A stretch of DNA of 55,954 bases from Acidisoma sp. L85 (lineage in GTDB: Bacteria; Pseudomonadota; Alphaproteobacteria; Acetobacterales; Acetobacteraceae), in the NCBI RefSeq assembly GCF_009765865.1, contig NZ_LMUQ01000047.1, positions 15,830 to 71,783 of the forward strand. The letters run 5' to 3'. Made by a program: the position numbers and the translations under genes. Position 1 is the stretch's first letter. Every line of letters begins with the position of its first letter. The notes below the pieces were generated by a model. That model searched no databases. It was given only the letters and a program-made list of their open reading frames with translations, and was not told the DNA's origin. Below are positions 1 to 11,980 of this stretch, in pieces.

Positions 1-1398
1 GTGATGCAGGCGAGCGTGCCCGCGCAGATCAGGCATATGATTGACCGAGCCGTCCGGATCGCCAGCGCGCGGCGCGTTGTCACCTGTTTGATCCTTCCGA
101 ATGACCTGCAGTTGATGCCGTATCAGGACCCTCCTATGGCCCATGGCGCGACCCATACGGGGGTTGGCTATGCTTTACCGGCGAAGCTGCCGGATGAGGG
201 CACGCTGCGGGAAGCAGCTTCTATTCTGAACAGCGGCAAGAAGGTCGCCATGCTGGTCGGTGCGGGCGCCTTGGGTGCGACCGACGAAGTCATCGCGGTC
301 GCCGACAAGTTGCAGGCGGGTTGCGCCAAGGCACTTCTCGGCAAGGCGGCTTTGCCGGACGACCTGCCGTGGGTGACGGGCTCCCTCGGCCTGCTCGGCA
401 CCAAGCCGTCCTGGGATCTGATGCAAGGCTGCGACACCTTCCTGATGGTCGGCTCGTCTTTCCCCTACAGCGAGTTCTTGCCCAAGCCCGGCAGTGCCCG
501 CGGCGTACAGATCGATATCGACGCCGCCAGTCTTAGTCTCCGCTACCCGATGGAGTTGAGCATGGTCGGTGATAGCGCGACGACGCTGCGCGCGCTGCTG
601 CCGCTGTTGGAGCAAAAGACGGACACGTCCTGGCGCGGGGGGATCGAGAAGGGTCTGCAATCCTGGTGGAAGCAGCTGGAGGAGCGGGCGATGCAAAGCG
701 CCGAACCGCTCAACCCGCAACGCGTCTTCTGGGAGCTGTCGCCCAGGCTGCCCGAGAACGCCATCATCACCGCCGATAGTGGATCCGTAGCCAATTGGTA
801 TGCCCGAGACCTGAAGATGCGGCGGGGTATGAAGGCTTCTCTATCCGGTGGTCTTGCCTCGCTGGGTGCCGGCACGCCCTATGCGATGGCCGCGAAGATG
901 GCCTATCCCGAACGCACGGTGATCGCTTGCATGGGAGACGGCGCTATGCAGATGAACGGCCTGAACGTGATGATCACCATCAGTAAATATTGGAGGCAGT
1001 GGTCCAACCCCAAACTGATCGTGCTCGTTCTCAACAACCGGGACCTCAATCAGGTCACCTGGGAGGAGCGAGTAACGCTAGGCGCCGGGAAGACTGAAAG
1101 CACGCAGAGCATTCCGGATTTTCCGTATCACAAATACGCCGAGTTGCTCGGCCTGAAGGGGATCTTCGTCGATCATCCCGACAAGGTCGGCGCTGCCTGG
1201 GATGAAGCCCTGTCGGCTGATCGGCCCGTGATACTGGAGGCTTACACTGATCCCAATGTTCCGCCGCTGCCGCCACATATTACGCTGAAGGATGCGCGCA
1301 ATTTCATGACGTCTTTGCTTGATGAGCCTGAGCGAGCCAGCGTCATCGTCAATAGCGCTAAGGAGATGCTCGCGAGCGTCCTGCCCGGAAAGGGTTGA
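1..1398 (+). CDS. Thiamine-pyrophosphate-dependent enzyme (acetolactate synthase/pyruvate oxidase superfamily), 5' end outside window
   Basis: The 465 visible residues cover the end of the N-terminal Pyr domain, a central Rossmann-like domain (about residues 65-205) and the C-terminal PP domain. The PP domain carries the TPP/Mg signature GDGAMQMNG near residue 312, followed by NN about 30 residues later. Family members run near 590-600 residues, so roughly 130 N-terminal residues lie upstream of base 1 and the apparent start is an edge artefact. The family cleaves or ligates 2-keto acids using TPP; the substrate cannot be read here. It is followed after 3 bases by an enolase-superfamily gene, which suggests the TPP enzyme acts on a 2-keto acid made by that dehydratase (inference). 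Confidence 0.88.
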   Translation: MMQASVPAQIRHMIDRAVRIASARRVVTCLILPNDLQLMPYQDPPMAHGATHTGVGYALPAKLPDEGTLREAASILNSGKKVAMLVGAGALGATDEVIAVADKLQAGCAKALLGKAALPDDLPWVTGSLGLLGTKPSWDLMQGCDTFLMVGSSFPYSEFLPKPGSARGVQIDIDAASLSLRYPMELSMVGDSATTLRALLPLLEQKTDTSWRGGIEKGLQSWWKQLEERAMQSAEPLNPQRVFWELSPRLPENAIITADSGSVANWYARDLKMRRGMKASLSGGLASLGAGTPYAMAAKMAYPERTVIACMGDGAMQMNGLNVMITISKYWRQWSNPKLIVLVLNNRDLNQVTWEERVTLGAGKTESTQSIPDFPYHKYAELLGLKGIFVDHPDKVGAAWDEALSADRPVILEAYTDPNVPPLPPHITLKDARNFMTSLLDEPERASVIVNSAKEMLASVLPGKG

Positions 1399-1401
1399 TC
1401 G

Positions 1402-2499
1402 GTGTGCCCCGATGCGGCGATTGGCCGGGTGACCGCGCGCGCCTACACGGTGCCGACTGACGCCCCGGAGGCCGATGGCACCTTCGCCTGGGACAGGACG
1501 ACACTTGTCGTTGTCGAGGTCGCGGCCGGTGGCGAGACAGGACTGGGCTACACCTATGCCGATGCCTGCCTTTTGCGCCTCATCGAGAAGACACTTGGCC
1601 CCGTTATCGCGGGGGCCAATGCGATGGACATGCGGGCGGCTTGGACGGCCATGCAGCACGCGGTGCGGAATCTTGGACGATCCGGCCTGGCGGCATGCGC
1701 TATCTCGGCGATCGATGTCGCGCTCTGGGACCTCAAGGCTAAATTGCTCGGCGTTCCCCTCGCCTCGCTGTTCGGCCAAGAGCGCGCGTCGGTGTCAATT
1801 TACGGCAGTGGCGGCTTCACCACTTACGATGACGCGCAGCTACGCGATCAGCTTGCAGGCTGGGTGGAGAGGGATGGCTGCCGGGCCGTCAAGATGAAGA
1901 TCGGCACGCATACCGATCAGGATCCCCGTCGCGTCGCCATTGCCAAGAAGGCCATTGGAGACGCGGCTCTGTTTGTCGACGCAAACGGGGCTTTCGGAGT
2001 GCGGGAAGCTCTCCGCTTCGCGCATGTCTTTGCTGACAGCGCGGGGATCCGTTGGTTTGAGGAACCTGTGTCCTCAGATGATCTTGAGGGCCTACGGCTC
2101 GTTAGAGAGGCGGCGCCAGCCGGGGTGGATATTGCCGCCGGCGAATATGTCTACACCCAGGACGATGCCCGGCTTATGCTAGGCAGCGGGGCGGTTGATG
2201 TGCAGCAGGCGGATGCCACGCGTTGTGGAGGGATAACGGGCTTCCTCGCCATCGCAGCACAGTGCGAGGCGCACCATATCGATCTCTCCGGGCATTGCGC
2301 CCCCGCTCTCCATCTCCATGCGGCCTGCGCCGCACCGGTTTTTCGCCATCTCGAATGGTTCCACGATCATGTGCGGATCGAGCACATGCTGTTCGATGGC
2401 GCCCCGGTTCCGAAAGGTGGCGCCATCCGTCCTGACCTCTCGCGCCCTGGCCTCGGCCTGACCTTCAAACATTCTGACGCCGAGAGATACCAAGTATGA
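1402..2499 (+). CDS. Mandelate racemase/muconate lactonizing enzyme family protein (enolase superfamily, likely sugar-acid dehydratase)
   Basis: A 365-residue protein of normal family length. The N-terminal capping domain (about 1-125) is followed by a TIM barrel. Visible active-site elements are the KMKIG strand with the catalytic lysines, metal-ligand motifs FVDANG, FEEP and AAGEY, a conserved ADATRCGGITG stretch, and the late SGHCAP histidine motif. Members abstract a proton alpha to a carboxylate, and many are acid-sugar dehydratases producing 2-keto-3-deoxy acids. The start is GTG, 3 bases after the upstream stop, and the end overlaps the next gene by 4 bases (ATGA), so the genes are translationally coupled. 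The sugar acid is unknown. Confidence 0.87.
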   Translation: MCPDAAIGRVTARAYTVPTDAPEADGTFAWDRTTLVVVEVAAGGETGLGYTYADACLLRLIEKTLGPVIAGANAMDMRAAWTAMQHAVRNLGRSGLAACAISAIDVALWDLKAKLLGVPLASLFGQERASVSIYGSGGFTTYDDAQLRDQLAGWVERDGCRAVKMKIGTHTDQDPRRVAIAKKAIGDAALFVDANGAFGVREALRFAHVFADSAGIRWFEEPVSSDDLEGLRLVREAAPAGVDIAAGEYVYTQDDARLMLGSGAVDVQQADATRCGGITGFLAIAAQCEAHHIDLSGHCAPALHLHAACAAPVFRHLEWFHDHVRIEHMLFDGAPVPKGGAIRPDLSRPGLGLTFKHSDAERYQV

Positions 2500-3437
2500 A
2501 TACAACGAGGCCGACAGGCGATGTGGCAACGGCCATCGCTCTGCTGAGCGGGGCAACGCTATTGGGTGGCGTCGCCTTGGCGTTGCGTCCGCCGAAGGCG
2601 CCGACCGACCCGCGTGAGACCACGCTGCGCGCCGCGCGCCGCCTCAACCGGGCCGCCGGCGCGCTCGCGGCTTCGGTGCTCGTCGATAGCGCCATCGAGC
2701 ACTATCGCGGTTCCTTCCACAACAAGGCGATGGTGACACCGCTTGTTACGGCATCCCTGTCCTTACTGGCGAGCCTTCACGGTACTGGCGATCGCCGCTA
2801 CGGCGCCCATGTGGTGCGGGACATCATCTATGCGGGCGCCGCGTTGACCGGCGTGATCGGGACGGGATTTCATCTCTACAACATCAGCAGAAAGCCCGGC
2901 GGGTTCGGATGGCAGAACCTTTTCTACTCGGCACCCCTCGGCGCCCCGGCTGCCATGTCCCTATCCGGGATGCTCGGCTTTCTGTCCGAGCGGCTGCGTG
3001 ACAACCTCCCCGGATCCAGGCCGACGATCCTCGGCATCCCCGCCGGCCGTGTCATCGGCGTCATGACGAGCCTCGGCCTGCTGGGCACGACGGGTGAGGC
3101 GGGGCTGCTCCATTTCCGTGGCGCCTATCACAACCCCGCGATGTACTTGCCCGTTACCATGCCGCCAATAACGGCCCTCCTGCTGGGCGCCAGTGCTATG
3201 GGCAGCCTCGGGAAACGGCGCAGACTGACCCGCTGGTGGCTGCGCTTGACGGCGCTTCTAGGCTTCTCGGGCAGCGGCTTTCATGCCGTCGGCGTGGCTC
3301 GCGGCATGGGCGGATGGCGGAATTGGAGCCAGAACCTGCTCAATGGGCCGCCAATCCCGGCCCCGCCCAGCTTTACGGGGCTCGCAATGGCCGGCCTTGC
3401 GGCGCTCGGGCTGATGGAGGATTACCCCGATGACTAA
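2496..3437 (+). CDS. Uncharacterised polytopic membrane protein with a tandem-duplicated histidine-containing module
   Basis: A 313-residue hydrophobic protein with about 8 predicted membrane segments; I do not recognise a named family. It consists of two copies of one unit. HYRGSFHNKAM (from residue 69) matches HFRGAYHNPAM (from 206), and GTGFHLYN (His126) matches GSGFHAVG (His263). Three histidine pairs (69/206, 75/212, 126/263) all sit exactly 137 residues apart. Conserved histidines inside or beside membrane helices suit heme or metal binding, or a quinone site. It lies in a tight operon (4-base overlap before, 8-base overlap after) next to a GMC dehydrogenase and its subunit 3, with no cytochrome c gene, so an electron-transfer or membrane-anchor role is my inference. 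Confidence 0.8.
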   Translation: MNTTRPTGDVATAIALLSGATLLGGVALALRPPKAPTDPRETTLRAARRLNRAAGALAASVLVDSAIEHYRGSFHNKAMVTPLVTASLSLLASLHGTGDRRYGAHVVRDIIYAGAALTGVIGTGFHLYNISRKPGGFGWQNLFYSAPLGAPAAMSLSGMLGFLSERLRDNLPGSRPTILGIPAGRVIGVMTSLGLLGTTGEAGLLHFRGAYHNPAMYLPVTMPPITALLLGASAMGSLGKRRRLTRWWLRLTALLGFSGSGFHAVGVARGMGGWRNWSQNLLNGPPIPAPPSFTGLAMAGLAALGLMEDYPDD

Positions 3438-4071
3438 CCTCTATCCAGGCTACGATGTGCTTGCCAAGCGCCGCACGCCGTCTTGGAATGAAAAGACGCG
3501 AGCGGTGATCGATCATCGCCTGGCGATTCCGCGTGAGCCGCGTTTCCTGTCACCAGAGCTGTTCGTCATCCTCGAAGCATTTTGCGCGCGCATTCTGCCG
3601 CAGCCCTCCGATCGACCGCCAGTGCCGCTTGCGGCGCTCGTCGACACGAAGCTGTTCACGAATCTTCAGGATGGATTCCGCTACAGCCAGATGCCGGACC
3701 AGGGCGAGGCGTGGCGGTGTGGTCTGATGGCACTGGATGAGGCCGCACGCGCGCATTACGACCGCGGGTTTACGGCCCTCAGCGGCGAACAGCAGGACGA
3801 CGTCCTACGCCGCATGGAGCGCGGTGAATTGTCAGGCGGAGCGCTAGGCGACATGCCCGCGGAGATGTTCTTCGAGCATCGTGCTGTGCTCGACATCGTC
3901 TCCTCCTACTATGCGCACCCAACGGCCTGGAGCGAGATGGGTTTTGGCGGTCCGGCAAGCCCGCGCGGCTATGTCCGTATGGGCCTCGATCGTCGCGACC
4001 CGTGGGAGGCGGCGGAGGCCAAGTCCGATGAGGAGGAGCACGCACGGCGGGAGAACCAAGGTGTCGGCTGA
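3430..4071 (+). CDS. Gluconate 2-dehydrogenase subunit 3 family protein
   Basis: A 213-residue soluble protein, partner type for GMC flavoprotein dehydrogenases. The family core is visible (LSPELFVILEAFCARILP, then the aromatic-rich FRYSQMPDQGEAWR and an HYDRGFTALS segment). Classical gluconate or fructose dehydrogenase small subunits often carry a Tat signal that co-exports the flavoprotein; none is present here, so the complex probably works on the cytoplasmic side. The gene overlaps its upstream neighbour by 8 bases and the downstream GMC gene by 11. The gene pair defines a dehydrogenase complex; the usual cytochrome c subunit is absent. Confidence 0.82.
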   Translation: MTNLYPGYDVLAKRRTPSWNEKTRAVIDHRLAIPREPRFLSPELFVILEAFCARILPQPSDRPPVPLAALVDTKLFTNLQDGFRYSQMPDQGEAWRCGLMALDEAARAHYDRGFTALSGEQQDDVLRRMERGELSGGALGDMPAEMFFEHRAVLDIVSSYYAHPTAWSEMGFGGPASPRGYVRMGLDRRDPWEAAEAKSDEEEHARRENQGVG

Positions 4072-5704
4072 TCCCTTCGCGGCGCCGCGCGCAATTGGCG
4101 GCCGGGCGCCGGATGTCTTCAAGCCCGGCGCCTGGGTGGAGATGCAGCAGTATGAGGAGGATGAGGCGGTCGATTTTGTCGTCATTGGCACAGGGGCCGG
4201 CGGCGGCCCGTTAATCGCCCGCCTGGCGGAGCAGGGTTTTTCGGTCGTCGGCTTTGATGCAGGTCCGTATTTCCGCCCGCTTGAGGACTTTGCGTCTGAC
4301 GAGATGGAGCAGCAAAAGCTCTATTGGCTTGATCAGCGCATCATCGACGGCGACAACCCGATCCGCATGGGTGGCAAGAACAGCGGCAAAGCCGTCGGCG
4401 GCAGCACGGTCCACTTTGCTATGGTCTCGCTACGGTTCCGGCCTGAATGGTTCAAATCCCGCAGCGTGCTCGGCTACGGCGCGGATTGGCCGCTCGATTG
4501 GCGCGAGATGTGGGATTACTACCGCCGCGCCGAGAAGGCGCTCAGCATTGCCGGCCCCGTCAGCTATCCATGGGGACCGAAACGGCCGCGCTACCCTTAC
4601 CGTCCGCACGAACTGAACGGCGCGGCCGAACTGCTGGCGCGCGGCGCCGAAGCTATGGGGTACAAATGGACTGCGACGCCACTCGCCACCGTTTCCGCGC
4701 CGCACGGTGATTCGCCGCCCTGCGTCTATCGCGGCTTCTGTCGCTTTGGTTGTTCAACCAATGCGAAGCAAAGCCAATTGGTGACGTTCATACCGCGCGC
4801 CATCGCGGCCGGCGCCGAAATCCGCGATTTGGCGATGGTCGGTCGGATCGAAACCGGGCCGGACGCGCGGGCGACCGGCGTGCATTATCATCGCGAAGGT
4901 CGCTGGCGATACCAGAAGGCTCGCAATGTTATCGTCGCGGGCTATGCGATTGAGACGCCACGCCTGCTGCTGGCCTCTGCCAATGATCGCTACCCTGAGG
5001 GCCTCGCCAACAGCTCCGGTCTTGTCGGCAAGAACCTCATGACCCAGTCTAACCAAGCGGTCTGGGGCGTCATGGATCAGGAGGTCAGGTGGAACAAAGG
5101 TCCTCCTTCGCTCAGCATCACCGAGCACTGGAATTATGACGACCGCAAGGACTTTCACGGCGGCTATTGCTGGATGGCGCAGGGGCCGTTGCCGATCGAG
5201 TGGGCAACCGTCGTTACCGGGTCGCGGAAGCTCTGGGGGACACCGCTGCGCGAGCAGATGATGCGCTACAATCATCAGGTTGGACTCAAGATGGTAGGCG
5301 AGATGTTACCCGACGAGCGCAACCGCGTTACGCTGACTGATGAAGTCGATCAATACGGCCTGCGTATCCCCCGTATCACCTATAGTTGGAGCGATAATGA
5401 CAAGGCATTGATCCAACATGCACTTGGCCAGATGCAGACGAGCCTAGAGATGGTCGGGGCCGAGGATATCTTCCGGCAGGAAGATGACACCAACCACCTA
5501 GCTGGCACCGCCCGCATGGGCACCGATCCGCGCAGCAGTGTCGTCAACTCGGATTGCCGAAGCTGGGATATTCCTAATCTCTGGATTTGTGACGGCTCGG
5601 TCTTCCCGACGACCGGCGGCGTCAATCCGTCTCTGACGATCACGGCCATCGCACTGCGCGTGGCCGACCGAATCAAGGCACTCGCCGCGCGGGGCGAGCT
5701 GTAG
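4061..5704 (+). CDS. GMC-family FAD-dependent dehydrogenase (gluconate 2-dehydrogenase large-subunit type)
   Basis: The GTG start at 4061 gives 547 residues and the usual N-terminus; a longer open frame to 3881 only shadows the upstream gene. The FAD dinucleotide fold is VVIGTGAGGG near residues 40-49. The C-terminal active-site signatures HLAGTARMG and GGVNPSLT are present. A four-cysteine-like stretch (PPCVYRGFCRFGCSTNA, near 225) is typical of the gluconate-dehydrogenase branch. It oxidises an alcohol group of a sugar, polyol or sugar acid and passes electrons on, probably to quinone. There is no signal peptide. It is the last gene of the operon; about 500 bases separate it from cyoA. Confidence 0.9.
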   Translation: MSADPFAAPRAIGGRAPDVFKPGAWVEMQQYEEDEAVDFVVIGTGAGGGPLIARLAEQGFSVVGFDAGPYFRPLEDFASDEMEQQKLYWLDQRIIDGDNPIRMGGKNSGKAVGGSTVHFAMVSLRFRPEWFKSRSVLGYGADWPLDWREMWDYYRRAEKALSIAGPVSYPWGPKRPRYPYRPHELNGAAELLARGAEAMGYKWTATPLATVSAPHGDSPPCVYRGFCRFGCSTNAKQSQLVTFIPRAIAAGAEIRDLAMVGRIETGPDARATGVHYHREGRWRYQKARNVIVAGYAIETPRLLLASANDRYPEGLANSSGLVGKNLMTQSNQAVWGVMDQEVRWNKGPPSLSITEHWNYDDRKDFHGGYCWMAQGPLPIEWATVVTGSRKLWGTPLREQMMRYNHQVGLKMVGEMLPDERNRVTLTDEVDQYGLRIPRITYSWSDNDKALIQHALGQMQTSLEMVGAEDIFRQEDDTNHLAGTARMGTDPRSSVVNSDCRSWDIPNLWICDGSVFPTTGGVNPSLTITAIALRVADRIKALAARGEL

Positions 5705-6204: not shown

Positions 6205-7143
6205 ATGTCCAAGACCAGCACAGGCCTGATAACGCGCGCCGTGGGCAGTCCTATTCGTCGGCTGCGCAAGGGCGTGACAATGGGCCTAACGGTAATGGCG
6301 GCCGGTCTGCTTTCAGGCTGCTCGGTGCTTAGCCGCGGATTTCTGGGAGCGGCCGGCCCGGTCGCTGCGGCTGAGCGGCACGAATTCTACCTCGTTGGCG
6401 CCGTTATGCTGCTGGTGATCGGGCCAGTGCTACTACTGACACCACTCATTGCCTGGCACTATCGGCTGGCCAACACAAAAAGCGCCTTCCGTCCGCAATG
6501 GGGTTTCTCCTGGATCTTGGAAGGGCTGATCTGGATCCCGCCCACCATTATCGTCATTGTACTTGCGGTCTTCCTGGTGGATGACACAGTGCGGCTGGAT
6601 CCGTATCGGCCCCTTTCGCCTGGCCTGTCACCGCTGCAGGTGCAAGCCGTTTCGCTGGATTGGAAGTGGCTGTTCATCTATCCGGACCAGCACATCGCCT
6701 CCGTCAATCAGCTGATCCTACCTGCCGGACGGCCTGTGCATGTCAGTCTGACCAGCGGGACCGTAATGCAGTCGCTTCTGATGCCGCAACTCGCCGGACA
6801 GATCCTCGCCATGGCCGGAATGACCACGCAGCTGAACTTCGCGATTTCGCAGCCCGGAACGTATTGGGGAGAAAATGCCCAGTATAACGGCGCGGGTTTC
6901 GATAAGCAGAAGTTTCAGGTCCTGGGCGTAAATCCGGTTGATTTCAACCGCTGGGTTGCATCGTCTCGACAGACACCTCGCCTGCTCGATGACGCGGCCT
7001 ATCGTACCCTGTCGCGCGAATCCGTGCTGTCGCAGCCCGTGACCTTCGGTAGCGTTGAGCCCGGCCTCTTCGCCAAAATTGTTCATCAGGCCATCCGGCC
7101 CGGCTATCTGCGCCAGCACGAGGACGCCAACTCTCATGGGTGA
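6205..7143 (+). CDS. cyoA: Cytochrome bo3 ubiquinol oxidase subunit II
   Basis: A 312-residue lipoprotein. A basic N-terminus (PIRRLRKG) leads to the lipobox LLSGC with the acylated cysteine near residue 39. Two membrane helices follow (about 60-85 and 105-128), then a cupredoxin domain. In the region where cytochrome c oxidases hold CuA, this protein reads NAQYNGAGFDKQKF with no Cys/His/Met set, as expected for a quinol oxidase. The GTG at 6241 is an alternative start that would give a more usual signal length. It is followed by cyoB after 3 bases. Confidence 0.92.
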   Translation: MSKTSTGLITRAVGSPIRRLRKGVTMGLTVMAAGLLSGCSVLSRGFLGAAGPVAAAERHEFYLVGAVMLLVIGPVLLLTPLIAWHYRLANTKSAFRPQWGFSWILEGLIWIPPTIIVIVLAVFLVDDTVRLDPYRPLSPGLSPLQVQAVSLDWKWLFIYPDQHIASVNQLILPAGRPVHVSLTSGTVMQSLLMPQLAGQILAMAGMTTQLNFAISQPGTYWGENAQYNGAGFDKQKFQVLGVNPVDFNRWVASSRQTPRLLDDAAYRTLSRESVLSQPVTFGSVEPGLFAKIVHQAIRPGYLRQHEDANSHG

Positions 7144-7146
7144 CCG

Positions 7147-9225
7147 ATGACCTTCTGGCATATCCTGCTCGGACGGTTGACCTGGGACTCCCTCGTGTTC
7201 GTCGAGGCCTGGCGGAATCCGACGATCAGCGAAATCATCGGCGGTCTCGCGGGCGGCGTCGCGGTGCTGGGTGCAGCGCTTCTGTTTGGATTGATCACGA
7301 TCCTCGGCAGATGGCGATACCTCTGGACCGTGTGGCTGACGAGCCTCGATCACAAGAAGATCGGGATCATGTACATGGTCTTCGCCGTGATCATGCTGTG
7401 CCGAGCGCTCATCGAGGCAGTCCTCATGCGTACGCAACAGGCAATCGCTATCAATAATCCCGGTCTGGTCGCGCCCGATCATTTCGCGCAGCTTTTTTCA
7501 ACCCACGGGACGATCATGGTCTTCTTCGTGGGCATGCCGCTTCTTACCGGGCTCATGAACTTTGTGATGCCCCTGCAGATTGGCTCTCGCGATGTGGCCT
7601 TCCCGTATATGAACTCGATCAGCTTGTGGCTGACGGTCGGTGGCGGCATCATGATGATGGCTTCACTCGTTGTAGGAAAATTCTCAACCGGCGGCTGGAG
7701 CGGCTATCCGCCCTACACGGAACTCGCCTTCAACGGCGGCGTTGGACCCGACTACTGGATCTGGGCGGTTTCGCTCAGCTCGCTCGGCGCGATGATGACG
7801 GGCATCAACTTTGCGGTGACGGTCTATAAGTTCCGGTCGCCCGGCATGAGGTGGATGCGCTTGCCGCTCTTTACATGGACCACTCTCTGCACCGCCATCC
7901 TGATGATCTTCGCGATGCCTCCGCTAACAGTCGCGACCTTGCTCCTGGCCGCAGATCGATACCTCGGGATGCACTTCTTCACGAATGATCTCGGCGGCAA
8001 CGTGATGAACTTCGTCAACCTCTTTTGGCTTTTTGGCCATCCGGAGGTCTATATCCTCATCTTGCCGGCCTTCGGCGTCTACTCCGAGGTAGTTTCTGCC
8101 TTCTCGTCGAAGGAACTCTATGGCTATACCTCGCTGGTAATCGCCACTATGGTGATCGCGATCCTATCCTTTACGGTCTGGCTTCACCATTTTTTTACGA
8201 TGGGGCAAAGCGCCGGCGTCAACTCGTTTTTCGGCATCGCGACGATGCTGATCGGTATCCCTACCGGCGTGAAGATCTACGACTGGATCTGGACAATGTT
8301 CTGGGGAGAGGTGCGGTTCAGCACCTCAATGCTCTTCTCCATCGCCTTCATGATCACCTTCGTAATCGGCGGCATGACCGGGATCATTCTGGCAACTCCG
8401 CCTCTCGACTACTTGGTGCACAACACGCTCTTTCTCGTCGCCCATTTCCACAACATGCTGATCCCGGGCACGCTCTACGGCGTGATCGCCGGTTATTACT
8501 ATTGGTTCCCGAAGGCCTTTGGCTTCCGCCTCTCGGAGAAATGGGGGCGCATCGCTTTCGTCTGCTGGGTGCCCGGCTTCTATCTTGCCTTCATGCCGCT
8601 CTATGTAATGGGCGCGTCGGGAGTGGCGCGGCGCACGCAGGAGCTTTTTGATCCGGCACTTCGGCCCTGGGTTATCGCAGCCGAGATCGGTGCTTTGCTG
8701 CTCCTTGCGGGGCTCGCCAGCCTCTTCATCCAGCTCTATGTCAGCATTAGACAGCGTCACACTACGCGTGTGCCCGTCGGCGACCCTTGGGATGCCCGTG
8801 GACTGGAATGGTCAATGTCTGCGCCGCCGCCCGAATATAATTTCGCGGTGATCCCTCAGGTCAGCCGACGAGACCCGTTCCATTGGCAGAAGATCAACAA
8901 TGGCGCCTATAAGCCCGCCGACCACTACCGGGATATTGAAGTGCCTAAGAACAGCATGTGCGGCGTTTTGATCGGGCTTGGCATGACCGCCTGCTTCACA
9001 GGCCTCGTGTGGCATATGTGGTGGCTCGCCGTCTGCGGCTTTACCTTTTCACTCGGCACCGCCATCGCACGCAGCTTTATGCGCGATGTGCGGCGGACGA
9101 TCCCGGCGGCCGAGGTGGAAGCACAACACCGGCGGTGGTTGGAAACCACCGCCGCAGCTCTACCGATCCCTCGGCACCTGGAAATGACGCCGGAGAATGA
9201 GGGATTAGCCAAATGGCAAGGTTGA
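7147..9225 (+). CDS. cyoB: Cytochrome bo3 ubiquinol oxidase subunit I
   Basis: A 692-residue heme-copper oxidase core. The metal ligands are all visible: the low-spin heme histidine in FSTHGTIMVFF, the CuB histidine in GHPEVYILILPAFG, the paired CuB histidines in WLHHFFTMG, and the heme ligands in VAHFHNMLIPG. The YS residues of the K-channel follow GHPEVYI, as in A-type oxidases. It reduces O2 to water with quinol electrons and pumps protons in the inner membrane. The stop overlaps the cyoC start by 13 bases. Confidence 0.96.
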   Translation: MTFWHILLGRLTWDSLVFVEAWRNPTISEIIGGLAGGVAVLGAALLFGLITILGRWRYLWTVWLTSLDHKKIGIMYMVFAVIMLCRALIEAVLMRTQQAIAINNPGLVAPDHFAQLFSTHGTIMVFFVGMPLLTGLMNFVMPLQIGSRDVAFPYMNSISLWLTVGGGIMMMASLVVGKFSTGGWSGYPPYTELAFNGGVGPDYWIWAVSLSSLGAMMTGINFAVTVYKFRSPGMRWMRLPLFTWTTLCTAILMIFAMPPLTVATLLLAADRYLGMHFFTNDLGGNVMNFVNLFWLFGHPEVYILILPAFGVYSEVVSAFSSKELYGYTSLVIATMVIAILSFTVWLHHFFTMGQSAGVNSFFGIATMLIGIPTGVKIYDWIWTMFWGEVRFSTSMLFSIAFMITFVIGGMTGIILATPPLDYLVHNTLFLVAHFHNMLIPGTLYGVIAGYYYWFPKAFGFRLSEKWGRIAFVCWVPGFYLAFMPLYVMGASGVARRTQELFDPALRPWVIAAEIGALLLLAGLASLFIQLYVSIRQRHTTRVPVGDPWDARGLEWSMSAPPPEYNFAVIPQVSRRDPFHWQKINNGAYKPADHYRDIEVPKNSMCGVLIGLGMTACFTGLVWHMWWLAVCGFTFSLGTAIARSFMRDVRRTIPAAEVEAQHRRWLETTAAALPIPRHLEMTPENEGLAKWQG

Positions 9226-9851
9226 CGACCGAGCCGGAGCTACGCCATGCCGGTCTCAACCTCGCCGACGACCCGCGCGAGGTCCGCGAACAGGTAGAGA
9301 GCGACGTCTTCGGGTTTTGGGTCTTTCTGATGAGCGACGCAGTGATGTTCGCGTTGCTTTTCGCCGTTTACGGCACGATGCGCCATGCCACCGCCGGCGG
9401 ACCAGGGCCAGAACAGGAGTTCAAGTTCCATTCCGCCTTCTGGGAGACGGCGCTCCTTCTCACCAGCAGCTTCGCCTATGGCATGGTATCGCTTTCTATG
9501 AAGCATGCGCGCGGACAACTTTGGCTCGCTTTGTGGCTCGGCATCACCTTCTGTTTGGGCGCCGGCTTCTTGAAGATGGAGATCCATGACTTTTTAACGA
9601 TGTTCCATGACGGTGCAACGCCCGAAAGAAGCGGCTACCTCTCTTCCTTCTTCGTGCTCGTCGGTATGCACGGCTTTCATGTCTTGAGCGGCCTCACCTG
9701 GATCCTGCTGATGGGCGTGCAGCTCGCCGTCTTCGGTCCGGACGACCGTGTCAAGGTCAACCTCATCCGTCTCGGATTGTTCTGGCATTTTCTCGACCTG
9801 ATCTGGGTCGTGATTTTTTCGGTCGTCTATCTGGAAGGTCTCAGTCTATGA
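9213..9851 (+). CDS. cyoC: Cytochrome bo3 ubiquinol oxidase subunit III
   Basis: A 212-residue membrane protein with five hydrophobic segments. Typical features are the N-terminal ESDVFGFWVFLMSDAVMF helix and the late GMHGFHVLSGLTWI and FWHFLDLIWVVIF helices. It stabilises the oxidase and helps proton uptake. The ATG at 9213 lies 8 bases after a GAGGGA ribosome site inside cyoB. It overlaps cyoD by 4 bases (ATGA). Confidence 0.94.
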   Translation: MARLTTEPELRHAGLNLADDPREVREQVESDVFGFWVFLMSDAVMFALLFAVYGTMRHATAGGPGPEQEFKFHSAFWETALLLTSSFAYGMVSLSMKHARGQLWLALWLGITFCLGAGFLKMEIHDFLTMFHDGATPERSGYLSSFFVLVGMHGFHVLSGLTWILLMGVQLAVFGPDDRVKVNLIRLGLFWHFLDLIWVVIFSVVYLEGLSL

Positions 9852-10159
9852 GGAGCTCCTCATCCTTGCGCCGAGACTTCATAACCTATTGCTTCGGCTA
9901 TCTAGCCGCGCTTTCTTTGACCGGGATCGCCTTCGCCTGTGTCTTCTATCGGCTCCTACCGCCGGTCCAGACCTTTGCACTCGTACTCGTGCTGGCGCTC
10001 ATTCAGGTAATCGTACACATGCGATGTTTCCTGCATATATCGCTCAAGCGGTCGGCGCGGGCTGACCTGCAGCTGATACTCTTCTCAGCCATGATCATTC
10101 TGCTGATGGTCGGGGGCACGCTCGTGGTGCTCTTTAATCTGAGCGCACGCATGATGTAG
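9848..10159 (+). CDS. cyoD: Cytochrome bo3 ubiquinol oxidase subunit IV
   Basis: A 103-residue protein with three membrane helices, matching the CyoD subunit in length and in the motif IQVIVHMRCFLHI between helices two and three. It overlaps the cyoC stop by 4 bases and closes the cyoABCD unit. No cyoE (heme o synthase) follows, so heme o must be supplied from elsewhere in the genome. Confidence 0.92.
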   Translation: MRSSSSLRRDFITYCFGYLAALSLTGIAFACVFYRLLPPVQTFALVLVLALIQVIVHMRCFLHISLKRSARADLQLILFSAMIILLMVGGTLVVLFNLSARMM

Positions 10160-10201: not shown

Positions 10202-11980
10202 ATGACAAGACGAATTGACGACTACGCCATGATCGGTGACGGCCAAACCGTGGCGCTGGTCGGACGGAACGGATCAATAGACTGGCTTTGCTGGCCGCGC
10301 TTTGACAGCGATGCCTGCTTTGCCGCCCTACTCGGCGAAGACGAGAACGGTTGCTGGGCCCTTGCGCCCGAAGGCCGTGAGATCAAACGCTCCCGTGCCT
10401 ATTGCGGCAACACACTGGTGCTGGAAACGGAGTTCACAACTGAAGCCGGAGCCGTGCGTGTGGTCGACTTTATGCCTATCCGCCACGGGGAAAGCTCCAC
10501 CATCGTCCGAATTGTCAGTGGCCTGGACGGCGTTGTCGATTTGCGTTCTGATATCCGGCTACGCTTCGACTACGGCAGCGTTGCGCCGTGGTTCCAGAAA
10601 GCAGAGGGCGCGATCATCGGAACGGTTGGACCGGACCTCATCGTGATCCGCAGCGACGTTCCGCTTGAGCGAGATGCGGAGACCATCAGTTCCCGCTTTG
10701 CGATACGCGCTGGACAGAGAGTGACCTTCACATTGCAGCATACGGCATCCACCGCTGCAGCGCCTGCGCAAGTTGATTCGGACAGGTTACTTGGCGAGAC
10801 GAAGACTTGGTGGCTCGACTGGATCGGCAAGTTCAGCCGGCAGACGGAGTGGCCGGACTTCGTCAAGCGGTCTCTCATCACTCTCAAGGCGCTGACCTAT
10901 TTTCCGACCGGTGGCGTGATTGCGGCGCCGACCACGAGCCTTCCCGAAAAGCCCGGCGGTAGTATGAATTGGGATTATCGCTATTGCTGGATACGAGATT
11001 CCACCTTCACGATGACGGCCTTTCTCAATGCCGGTTTGAAGGATGAAGCGTCGGCATGGTTGCGTTGGCTCCTTCGAGCCATCGGAAACAGTCCCGACAG
11101 CATCCGCATAGCCTACCGCGTGGATGGCGGGCGGCGGCTGGAGGAATGGACGGCGGGATGGCTAAGAGGCTTCGGCGGCGCGCGGCCGGTGCGGATTGGA
11201 AACAGTGCGGCGGGCCAGCGACAACTCGATATCTTCGGGGAGGTGCTGGATTCAGCCCATCTCGCGGAACGCGCCGCGCTCGACCGCAGTGACTGGGAGT
11301 TTGGGATCGAACACCGTCTCGTGCAACATGTTTCCGAAATCTGGCGGCAGCCTGACCAGGGCATGTGGGAATCCCGAGGCTCGCCCAAGCAGTATGTCTA
11401 CTCCAAGGTCATGGCTTGGGTCGCGGTCGACCGCTTTCTCAAGATGGGACGCGCGAAAGCCGAGCTTCCGCCGGCCACCTTCGAGAGATTCCATAAGCTG
11501 CGGGATGAGATGCACACCGAGATCTGCCAAAAGGGCTTCAACGAGAAATATAACACCTTCGGTGCGCAGTACTATTCTCATCAGCTCGATGCGAGCCTTC
11601 TCCTGCTTCCGCTCGTCGGCTTTCTGCCGATAGATGATTCGCGCATCGCGGGGACGATAGCCGCGATCGAATCTCAACTCATGGAGAGCGGACTGGTCCG
11701 TCGGCATAGGGCTCCTGCATTCGGAACTGAAGAAGGCGCCTTCATCGCCTGCTCTTGCTGGCTGGCGGACTGCATGGCTCTGCAGGGCCGACGCGATGAG
11801 GCTCGCGATCTTCTAGCGCGCGTCATCGCACTCGCCAATGACGTGGGTCTGCTGTCTGAGGAATATCATGTGCCCCAGAAACGCCTCGTCGGGAACGTAC
11901 CGCAGGCGCTCTGCCATCTTGCAGTTGTCAACAGTGTCCTCGGTCTATCCGGTCCGGTATTGCAGCGGGGCGGCGGATAG
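10202..11980 (+). CDS. Glycoside hydrolase family 15 protein (glucoamylase/trehalase-like)
   Basis: A 592-residue cytoplasmic protein; no signal peptide. An N-terminal trehalase-like beta domain (IDDYAMIGDGQTVALVG..GSIDWLCWPRFDS) leads into the (alpha/alpha)6 barrel. Substrate-site motifs GSMNWDYRYCWIRDSTF and the region around RIGNSAAGQRQLDIFGE match the GH15 core, as does the late FIACSCWLADCMALQGR. Members release glucose from alpha-glucans, and several actinobacterial and proteobacterial relatives are trehalases. It begins 42 bases after cyoD and may be co-transcribed. It ends 2 bases before the convergent AI-2E gene. Confidence 0.9.
   Translation: MTRRIDDYAMIGDGQTVALVGRNGSIDWLCWPRFDSDACFAALLGEDENGCWALAPEGREIKRSRAYCGNTLVLETEFTTEAGAVRVVDFMPIRHGESSTIVRIVSGLDGVVDLRSDIRLRFDYGSVAPWFQKAEGAIIGTVGPDLIVIRSDVPLERDAETISSRFAIRAGQRVTFTLQHTASTAAAPAQVDSDRLLGETKTWWLDWIGKFSRQTEWPDFVKRSLITLKALTYFPTGGVIAAPTTSLPEKPGGSMNWDYRYCWIRDSTFTMTAFLNAGLKDEASAWLRWLLRAIGNSPDSIRIAYRVDGGRRLEEWTAGWLRGFGGARPVRIGNSAAGQRQLDIFGEVLDSAHLAERAALDRSDWEFGIEHRLVQHVSEIWRQPDQGMWESRGSPKQYVYSKVMAWVAVDRFLKMGRAKAELPPATFERFHKLRDEMHTEICQKGFNEKYNTFGAQYYSHQLDASLLLLPLVGFLPIDDSRIAGTIAAIESQLMESGLVRRHRAPAFGTEEGAFIACSCWLADCMALQGRRDEARDLLARVIALANDVGLLSEEYHVPQKRLVGNVPQALCHLAVVNSVLGLSGPVLQRGGG

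Follow-up and report, generated by a model that had tools for sequence, protein, structure and literature searches.

Burkholderia FAD-GDH (BcGDH), fructose dehydrogenase and gluconate 2-dehydrogenase are bacterial FAD-dependent dehydrogenase complexes, and they are the known systems closest to the cluster described here; they combine a GMC catalytic subunit with an adjoining small subunit of the PF13618 family. According to the consulted part of PMC6719666, which also compares BcGDH with fumarate reductase, Cys212, Cys218 and Cys222 of the BcGDH alpha subunit bind a 3Fe-4S cluster. The gene cluster of Acidisoma sp. L85 described here encodes the same pair of proteins, namely a GMC flavoprotein homologous to the BcGDH alpha subunit, with the 3Fe-4S cysteines, and, next to it, a PF13618 small subunit. 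It differs from BcGDH-type complexes in the absence of a triheme cytochrome c gene and of a recognisable Tat signal, and in the presence of an unrelated eight-helix membrane protein (referred to below as MEM); moreover, the enzyme itself is predicted to be cytosolic. The following features were defined in the window, i.e. the whole stretch of 55,954 nucleotides that was analysed:

1..1398, + strand: TPP-dependent enzyme; the 5' part lies outside the window and is apparently disrupted there
1402..2499, + strand: enolase-superfamily (MR/MLE) enzyme, probably a sugar-acid dehydratase (PF13378, E 6.8e-59)
2496..3437, + strand: MEM, a 313-aa membrane protein of two tandem four-helix units plus a non-conserved N-terminal helix
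2610..2999, + strand: repeat unit 1 of MEM (helices 39-70, 77-98, 106-132 and 149-168; invariant H69, G119, G122 and H126)
3042..3422, + strand: repeat unit 2 of MEM (helices 183-210, 214-235, 243-270 and 292-309; invariant E201, H206, G256, G259 and H263)
3430..4071, + strand: gluconate 2-dehydrogenase subunit 3 family protein (PF13618, E 5.8e-19), without Tat or hydrophobic signal
4061..5704, + strand: GMC flavoprotein, with a likely GTG start at 4061 and a C-x5-C-x3-C motif matching the 3Fe-4S cysteines of the BcGDH alpha subunit
6205..10159, + strand: cyoABCD-type quinol oxidase genes, near the cluster; not conserved neighbours

The open reading frame of MEM is present where the original prediction placed it, and it overlaps the preceding gene by four bases and the subunit 3 gene by eight. 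The subunit 3 and GMC genes both follow MEM and overlap each other, and reading of both N-termini revealed no export signal, which agrees with what had been claimed for the two dehydrogenase subunits. At least 277 relatives of MEM were found in genome contigs; the best 80 of these were used as loci and, together with the window protein, form an alignment of 81 sequences (A2), in which the relatives are 50-80% identical to the window MEM. When the window GMC protein was compared with PDB sequences, the best match was the BcGDH alpha subunit (6a2u, E 2.4e-60), whose Cys212, Cys218 and Cys222 align with cysteines of the query. The C-x5-C-x3-C motif occurs in 73 of the 75 GMC open frames of MEM loci (it is missing from L046 and L060), and the retention of the 3Fe-4S cysteines, by way of which BcGDH hands its electrons on, indicates that the flavoprotein probably still has an electron exit.

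The substrate of the GMC/subunit 3 enzyme is probably a sugar or sugar acid, since enolase and GH15/SDR genes adjoin the cluster. The top NCBIfam match of the enolase-superfamily product (1402..2499) is talarate/galactarate dehydratase, below the cut-off, and a Komagataeibacter homologue of the TPP enzyme corresponds to NCBIfam PRK08273, with pyruvate oxidase as the second-best match. A GH15-like gene is located at positions 10202-11980 of the window, and GH15 and SDR genes recur around MEM clusters in many hosts. In the 5' part of the TPP gene, to the left of window position 1 (about 7052-7850 of L140, the 7.8 kb before the window), stretches are repeated in different frames, which may reflect decay or an assembly fault. 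Because this gene looks disrupted, the operon of the window may not be fully working; the MEM, subunit 3 and GMC frames are open. Upstream of the TPP genes, EcfG-like sites (GGAAC-N16-18-CGTT) were found in 7 of 75 cases (L037, L043, L090, L096, L104, L020 and L026) as against 1 of 296 control stretches, the TPP starts being approximated as 595 codons before the stop. L140 contains one looser match, about 3.5 kb before the window edge. These sites give a hint of general stress control in some hosts.

MEM had been called undescribed, and database searches bear this out. It gave no match at E<=1 in Pfam and NCBIfam; as a single sequence it produced one chance match among PDB sequences (E 0.84), and its profile retrieved nothing from them up to E 10. 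The 81 family members showed scattered weak matches to 23 Pfam families at E<=1 (the best, E 0.0056, for one member), and none of these 23 is a membrane b-type cytochrome family. In plasmid records the protein appears as hypothetical, once as a putative membrane protein, or is left unannotated. A literature search (open-licence papers, judged from listings) found no paper on the MEM cluster; PMC12542648, in its consulted part, lists single genes unrelated to it.

Comparison of MEM with itself gave a top offset of 137 residues with a score of 78, which exceeds the maximum of 53 obtained in 200 shuffles (mean 32.4), and the tandem repeat is therefore real. The histidine pairs 69/206, 75/212 and 126/263 are all spaced by exactly 137 residues, and the motifs reported around them (HYRG..HN / HFRG..HN and GFH / GFH) are found in MEM. 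The internal duplication itself, said to be exact, proved otherwise: the repeats are identical at 34 of 176 positions without gaps and are 23% identical when aligned, so MEM represents an old, diverged duplication in which the spacing alone is exact. Conservation of all three histidine pairs was likewise not upheld. H69, H126, H206 and H263 are invariant (81/81 in A2), whereas H75 is present in 25/81 and H212 in 50/81 sequences, and this variation rules out a set of six ligands provided by three pairs. No homologue without these four histidines, which would have counted against the original prediction, is present among the 81, and the glycines G119, G122, G256 and G259 are also kept in 81/81. 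The genome of the window carries a second MEM-subunit 3-GMC set at a contig edge (L139, G000:C10:1-2871), whose MEM is 86% identical to that of the window over residues 113-313. In another genome (L138, G366:C1:775796-777049) the cluster is present in decayed form, its MEM, subunit 3 and GMC sequences being broken up among several frames.

More distant relatives of MEM reside on plasmids of Deinococcus, Granulicella and Frondihabitans, and some of these consist of a single unit, i.e. the proteins of Deinococcus sp. D7000 (157 aa), AJ005 (154 aa) and Frondihabitans (156 aa). Each of the three precedes subunit 3/GMC genes; in Deinococcus sp. D7000 subunit 3 and GMC form one protein, and in AJ005 the subunit 3 reading is visible in translation, though unannotated. 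We compared 23 units from four phyla, 20 of them being the paired halves of 10 proteins out of the 16 in alignment A1, and the other three the single-unit proteins. All 23 keep the same two histidines, no other histidine being invariant, as well as the third-helix G-x2-G-x3-H motif, one alanine and a number of further glycines and prolines. In a tree of the units, the first repeats form one clade (98/97) and the second repeats another (99/98); both Granulicella repeats are nearer the one-unit forms (93/86). Long branches meet in this tree, and for this reason an independent duplication is not claimed. Two open frames of Deinococcus plasmids were considered as separate MEM halves and this was rejected, as the frame of 132 aa that comes first resembles VKOR (E 4e-5, below the Pfam cut-off) and only the second is a MEM unit. 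Two Deinococcus plasmids have a small gene immediately ahead of the one-unit MEM (L022:5496-5894 and L025:5505-5894), the L022 copy being the weakly VKOR-like one. A fusion of MEM to another protein in G043/G045 was also discarded; the long open frames there are upstream read-through.

In accordance with the original prediction, the list of open reading frames of the window shows no gene for a cytochrome c in the interval from MEM to cyoA. As controls we used 20 hand-picked, non-random PF13618 places without MEM from the same family, of which 18 are strong (mid-contig, with scores above 100 bits) and 2 weak. Of the strong controls, 17 of 18 have a cluster ORF with three CxxCH motifs (L128 is without it); in the 80 MEM loci, the stretch from the TPP gene to the GMC gene contains no ORF with three or more. 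Seven of the 80 have such an ORF outside the cluster, at its closest 3.4 kb away from the start of MEM, and in 26 further loci ORFs of at least 90 aa that carry one or two CxxCH lie within 6 kb (counted collectively). The small subunits differ in a parallel manner. An RR pair precedes the subunit 3 domain in 18/18 strong controls, and a single rule applied to both sets (RR followed by a hydrophobic stretch) is passed by 17/18 strong and 0/2 weak controls and by 5 of 78 MEM-linked subunits 3. In the strong control that fails, RR lies further upstream, and the five MEM-linked passes appear by eye to be due to chance, arising from an RRLA-type stretch running into the domain or from sequence upstream of the start. 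The Tat signal on the small subunit, which is a membership feature of BcGDH-type complexes, was thus not found on the MEM-linked proteins.

The two weak controls (L132 and L133) encode a subunit 3/GMC pair with neither cytochrome c, Tat signal nor MEM, and their GMC proteins, at 383 and 357 bits, are closer to that of the window than the GMC proteins of the 18 strong controls, which score 100-169 bits; a similar enzyme type can therefore exist without MEM. These pairs (L132, 1335-3496; L133, 1405-4025) have four clustered cysteines. The proposal that MEM replaces the cytochrome c subunit is supported by the contrast in triheme ORFs between MEM-less and MEM loci; L132 and L133, which have neither, count against it. 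Such a replacement is the best reading of the comparison. Our preferred view of its role, in which we place somewhat less than even confidence on the grounds of sequence comparison, is that MEM acts as the membrane electron-transfer subunit of a cytosolic GMC/subunit 3 dehydrogenase complex, with substrate electrons passing from FAD through the 3Fe-4S cluster and MEM, by way of heme-b sites, to quinone.

The usual gene order is TPP enzyme, enolase, MEM, subunit 3, GMC. Subunit 3 is encoded within 4 kb downstream of MEM in 78/80 loci (within 500 bases in 72/80), and GMC not more than 5.5 kb downstream in 75/80; four of the five loci lacking a GMC match have just 41-2203 bases of contig remaining, and the fifth is L061. 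Frequent occurrence of MEM away from these genes, which the original prediction had regarded as damaging, was accordingly not observed. The enolase gene is close upstream in 56/80 loci and the TPP gene in 61/80, and in several other loci the TPP gene is placed between MEM and subunit 3. All 14 plasmid stretches inspected have MEM before subunit 3/GMC. Among 200 genomes of the family, PF13618 was found within 3.5 kb downstream at 30 of 34 MEM places (derived from 36 rows of matches, three rows of one broken copy being taken as one, and from 35 PF13618 rows, taken because they lie near MEM places, plus a few more). Four places are exceptions: in G045 subunit 3/GMC are located on a different contig, the G398 copy contains a stop, G052 is at a contig end and G392 is a remnant. 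Among 240 genomes of the class, 4/4 MEM places adjoin PF13618, out of 30 PF13618 places (compared by eye). The distribution is patchy: MEM occurs in 31/200 family, 3/240 class and 2/299 phylum genomes (with the unit profile for the phylum), each count including the window's own genome. On plasmids the family is found in Pseudomonadota, Deinococcota, Acidobacteriota and Actinomycetota. MEM is a real, unnamed membrane protein family, widespread but patchy, and tied to the GMC/subunit 3 dehydrogenase.

This context bears on another possible function, namely transport of a substrate or product of the pathway, in which the histidines together with D64 and E201 would relay protons or bind the substrate. 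Such a pathway could well use a permease, since the other conserved proteins of the cluster look cytosolic; D64 (80/81 in A2) and E201 (81/81) lie five residues before histidines, and the one-unit forms resemble small dimeric carriers. However, the closest linkage of MEM is to subunit 3 and GMC, the enolase and TPP genes being less regularly close upstream, and MEM occupies the genomic slot of a cytochrome. Matches to transporter families are at chance level (UAA, E 0.19; PTS_EIIC_2, E 0.36; one member each of 81), and we consider a transporter quite unlikely.

The small subunit itself carries a signature of the MEM clusters. The motif P-x-YDV-xx-[KR] (PGYDVLAKR at the N-terminus of the window protein) is present in 72 of 78 MEM-linked subunits 3 and in none of the 20 control loci; of the six proteins missing the strict motif, five are near variants by eye and one is truncated. 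Such a peptide would fit docking to the membrane protein, and it might be that docking is all that MEM provides: a cofactor-free anchor or platform, in which case 3Fe-4S would reduce quinone directly at the surface of the membrane, and the docking surface or a quinone pocket would be made of the invariant residues. The cysteines kept in GMC, and the many invariant non-histidine residues (HYRG, GG, PxxAP) on loops of one face of MEM, are in keeping with this explanation. What simple anchoring leaves unexplained is the persistence of two histidines and their flanking glycines in 23/23 units across phyla, and we judge it unlikely, though it deserves consideration.

The AlphaFold2 model of MEM (built from A2) consists of two four-helix units (pLDDT 88.9, pTM 0.86), and the second unit modelled alone gave similar values (pLDDT 87.5, pTM 0.82); helix 8-30 is of low confidence and is missing from some homologues. 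Foldseek searches against PDB with the whole model (best E 0.37) and with the half (best E 0.35) gave no match at E<=0.001. The top row for one unit was synaptogyrin (E 0.35), and several weak, non-significant matches were copper storage proteins (E 0.56 to 2.1). These matches, along with the two histidines and one acidic residue of each unit, would suit sites binding a metal ion (iron, copper or zinc) in place of heme, e.g. a quinone-interacting or cofactor-assembly site. The glycines found without exception four and seven residues before the histidine of the third helix would better suit a flat, bulky group, and a metal site appears distinctly improbable.

Judging from the helix order of the model, the two helices of a unit that carry invariant histidines would run in the same direction, with the histidines near the same end of both. 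Lysines and arginines in the loops are fewer on the histidine side (mean 7.7) than on the opposite side (14.8), and this holds for 81/81 sequences, so the positive-inside rule predicts a periplasmic histidine face; the net loop charges lie closer together (about +5.6 and +7.4). Histidines facing the periplasm, when the enzyme looks cytosolic, would be a difficulty for the electron-transfer reading that the original prediction did not foresee, as they leave a gap to the enzyme unless the topology is inverted or the electrons cross in another way.

If MEM is nevertheless an electron carrier, each of its units would hold one b-type heme, with one invariant histidine from the first helix and one from the third as its ligands, and the G-x2-G-x3-H face of the third helix leaving room for it. 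The presence of heme b is plausible; no sequence or fold match of MEM to any b-type cytochrome was obtained in Pfam, PDB sequences or Foldseek searches. The two sites would lie side by side in the tandem protein, and the one-unit homologues would reach an equivalent arrangement by forming homodimers. Docking of the enzyme would be the task of the [YF]PGYDV peptide, which is conserved at the N-terminus of subunit 3 where relatives have the Tat signal, and the complex would be arranged like fumarate reductase, from unrelated parts.

Should this role hold, the path from flavoprotein through Fe-S to a histidine-ligated membrane heme and quinone would resemble that of FrdC/SdhCD. MEM shows no sequence or fold match to these proteins, and their hemes are stacked across the membrane, in contrast to the invariant histidines of MEM, which are all on one face of two side-by-side units. 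In the cytochrome b of bc1/b6f complexes, a four-helix unit has its histidines on every second helix, these helices running in the same direction, with conserved glycines close by. A MEM unit shares this layout, but has one histidine pair per bundle and no family match to that protein. Taken as a whole, the proposition that MEM is a new membrane cytochrome b family of one or two four-helix bis-histidine units, through which a periplasmic FAD/3Fe-4S dehydrogenase linked to cytochrome c became a cytosolic enzyme that reduces quinone, in convergence with fumarate reductase, is tentative and rather doubtful.

With regard to the terminal oxidase, cyoA starts at 6205 and the ORFs at 6205-10159 fit cyoABCD (B, C and D named from sequence), so the genes proposed as the downstream quinol oxidase do exist. 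They are not a specific partner of MEM: a clear CyoB (69-70%) was found in just 2 of the 80 loci, which rules out cyoABCD as a generally dedicated oxidase. There is a partial match of 50% in L047, and the remainder, at 34-38%, are probably other heme-copper oxidases. In the 80 MEM loci, whose flanks reach 7 kb at most and less where contigs are shorter, no cydAB-like match passed E<=1e-10; cydAB is present on one Burkholderia plasmid.

That forms of one unit and of two units share a gene context makes this family a clear case of the growth of a membrane protein by duplication. The four invariant histidines make the role of MEM directly testable. If the proposed role is true, MEM would be a membrane electron carrier so far missing from the list of respiratory components, and would represent a second way of wiring GMC/3Fe-4S dehydrogenases, the class of enzymes used in glucose sensors.
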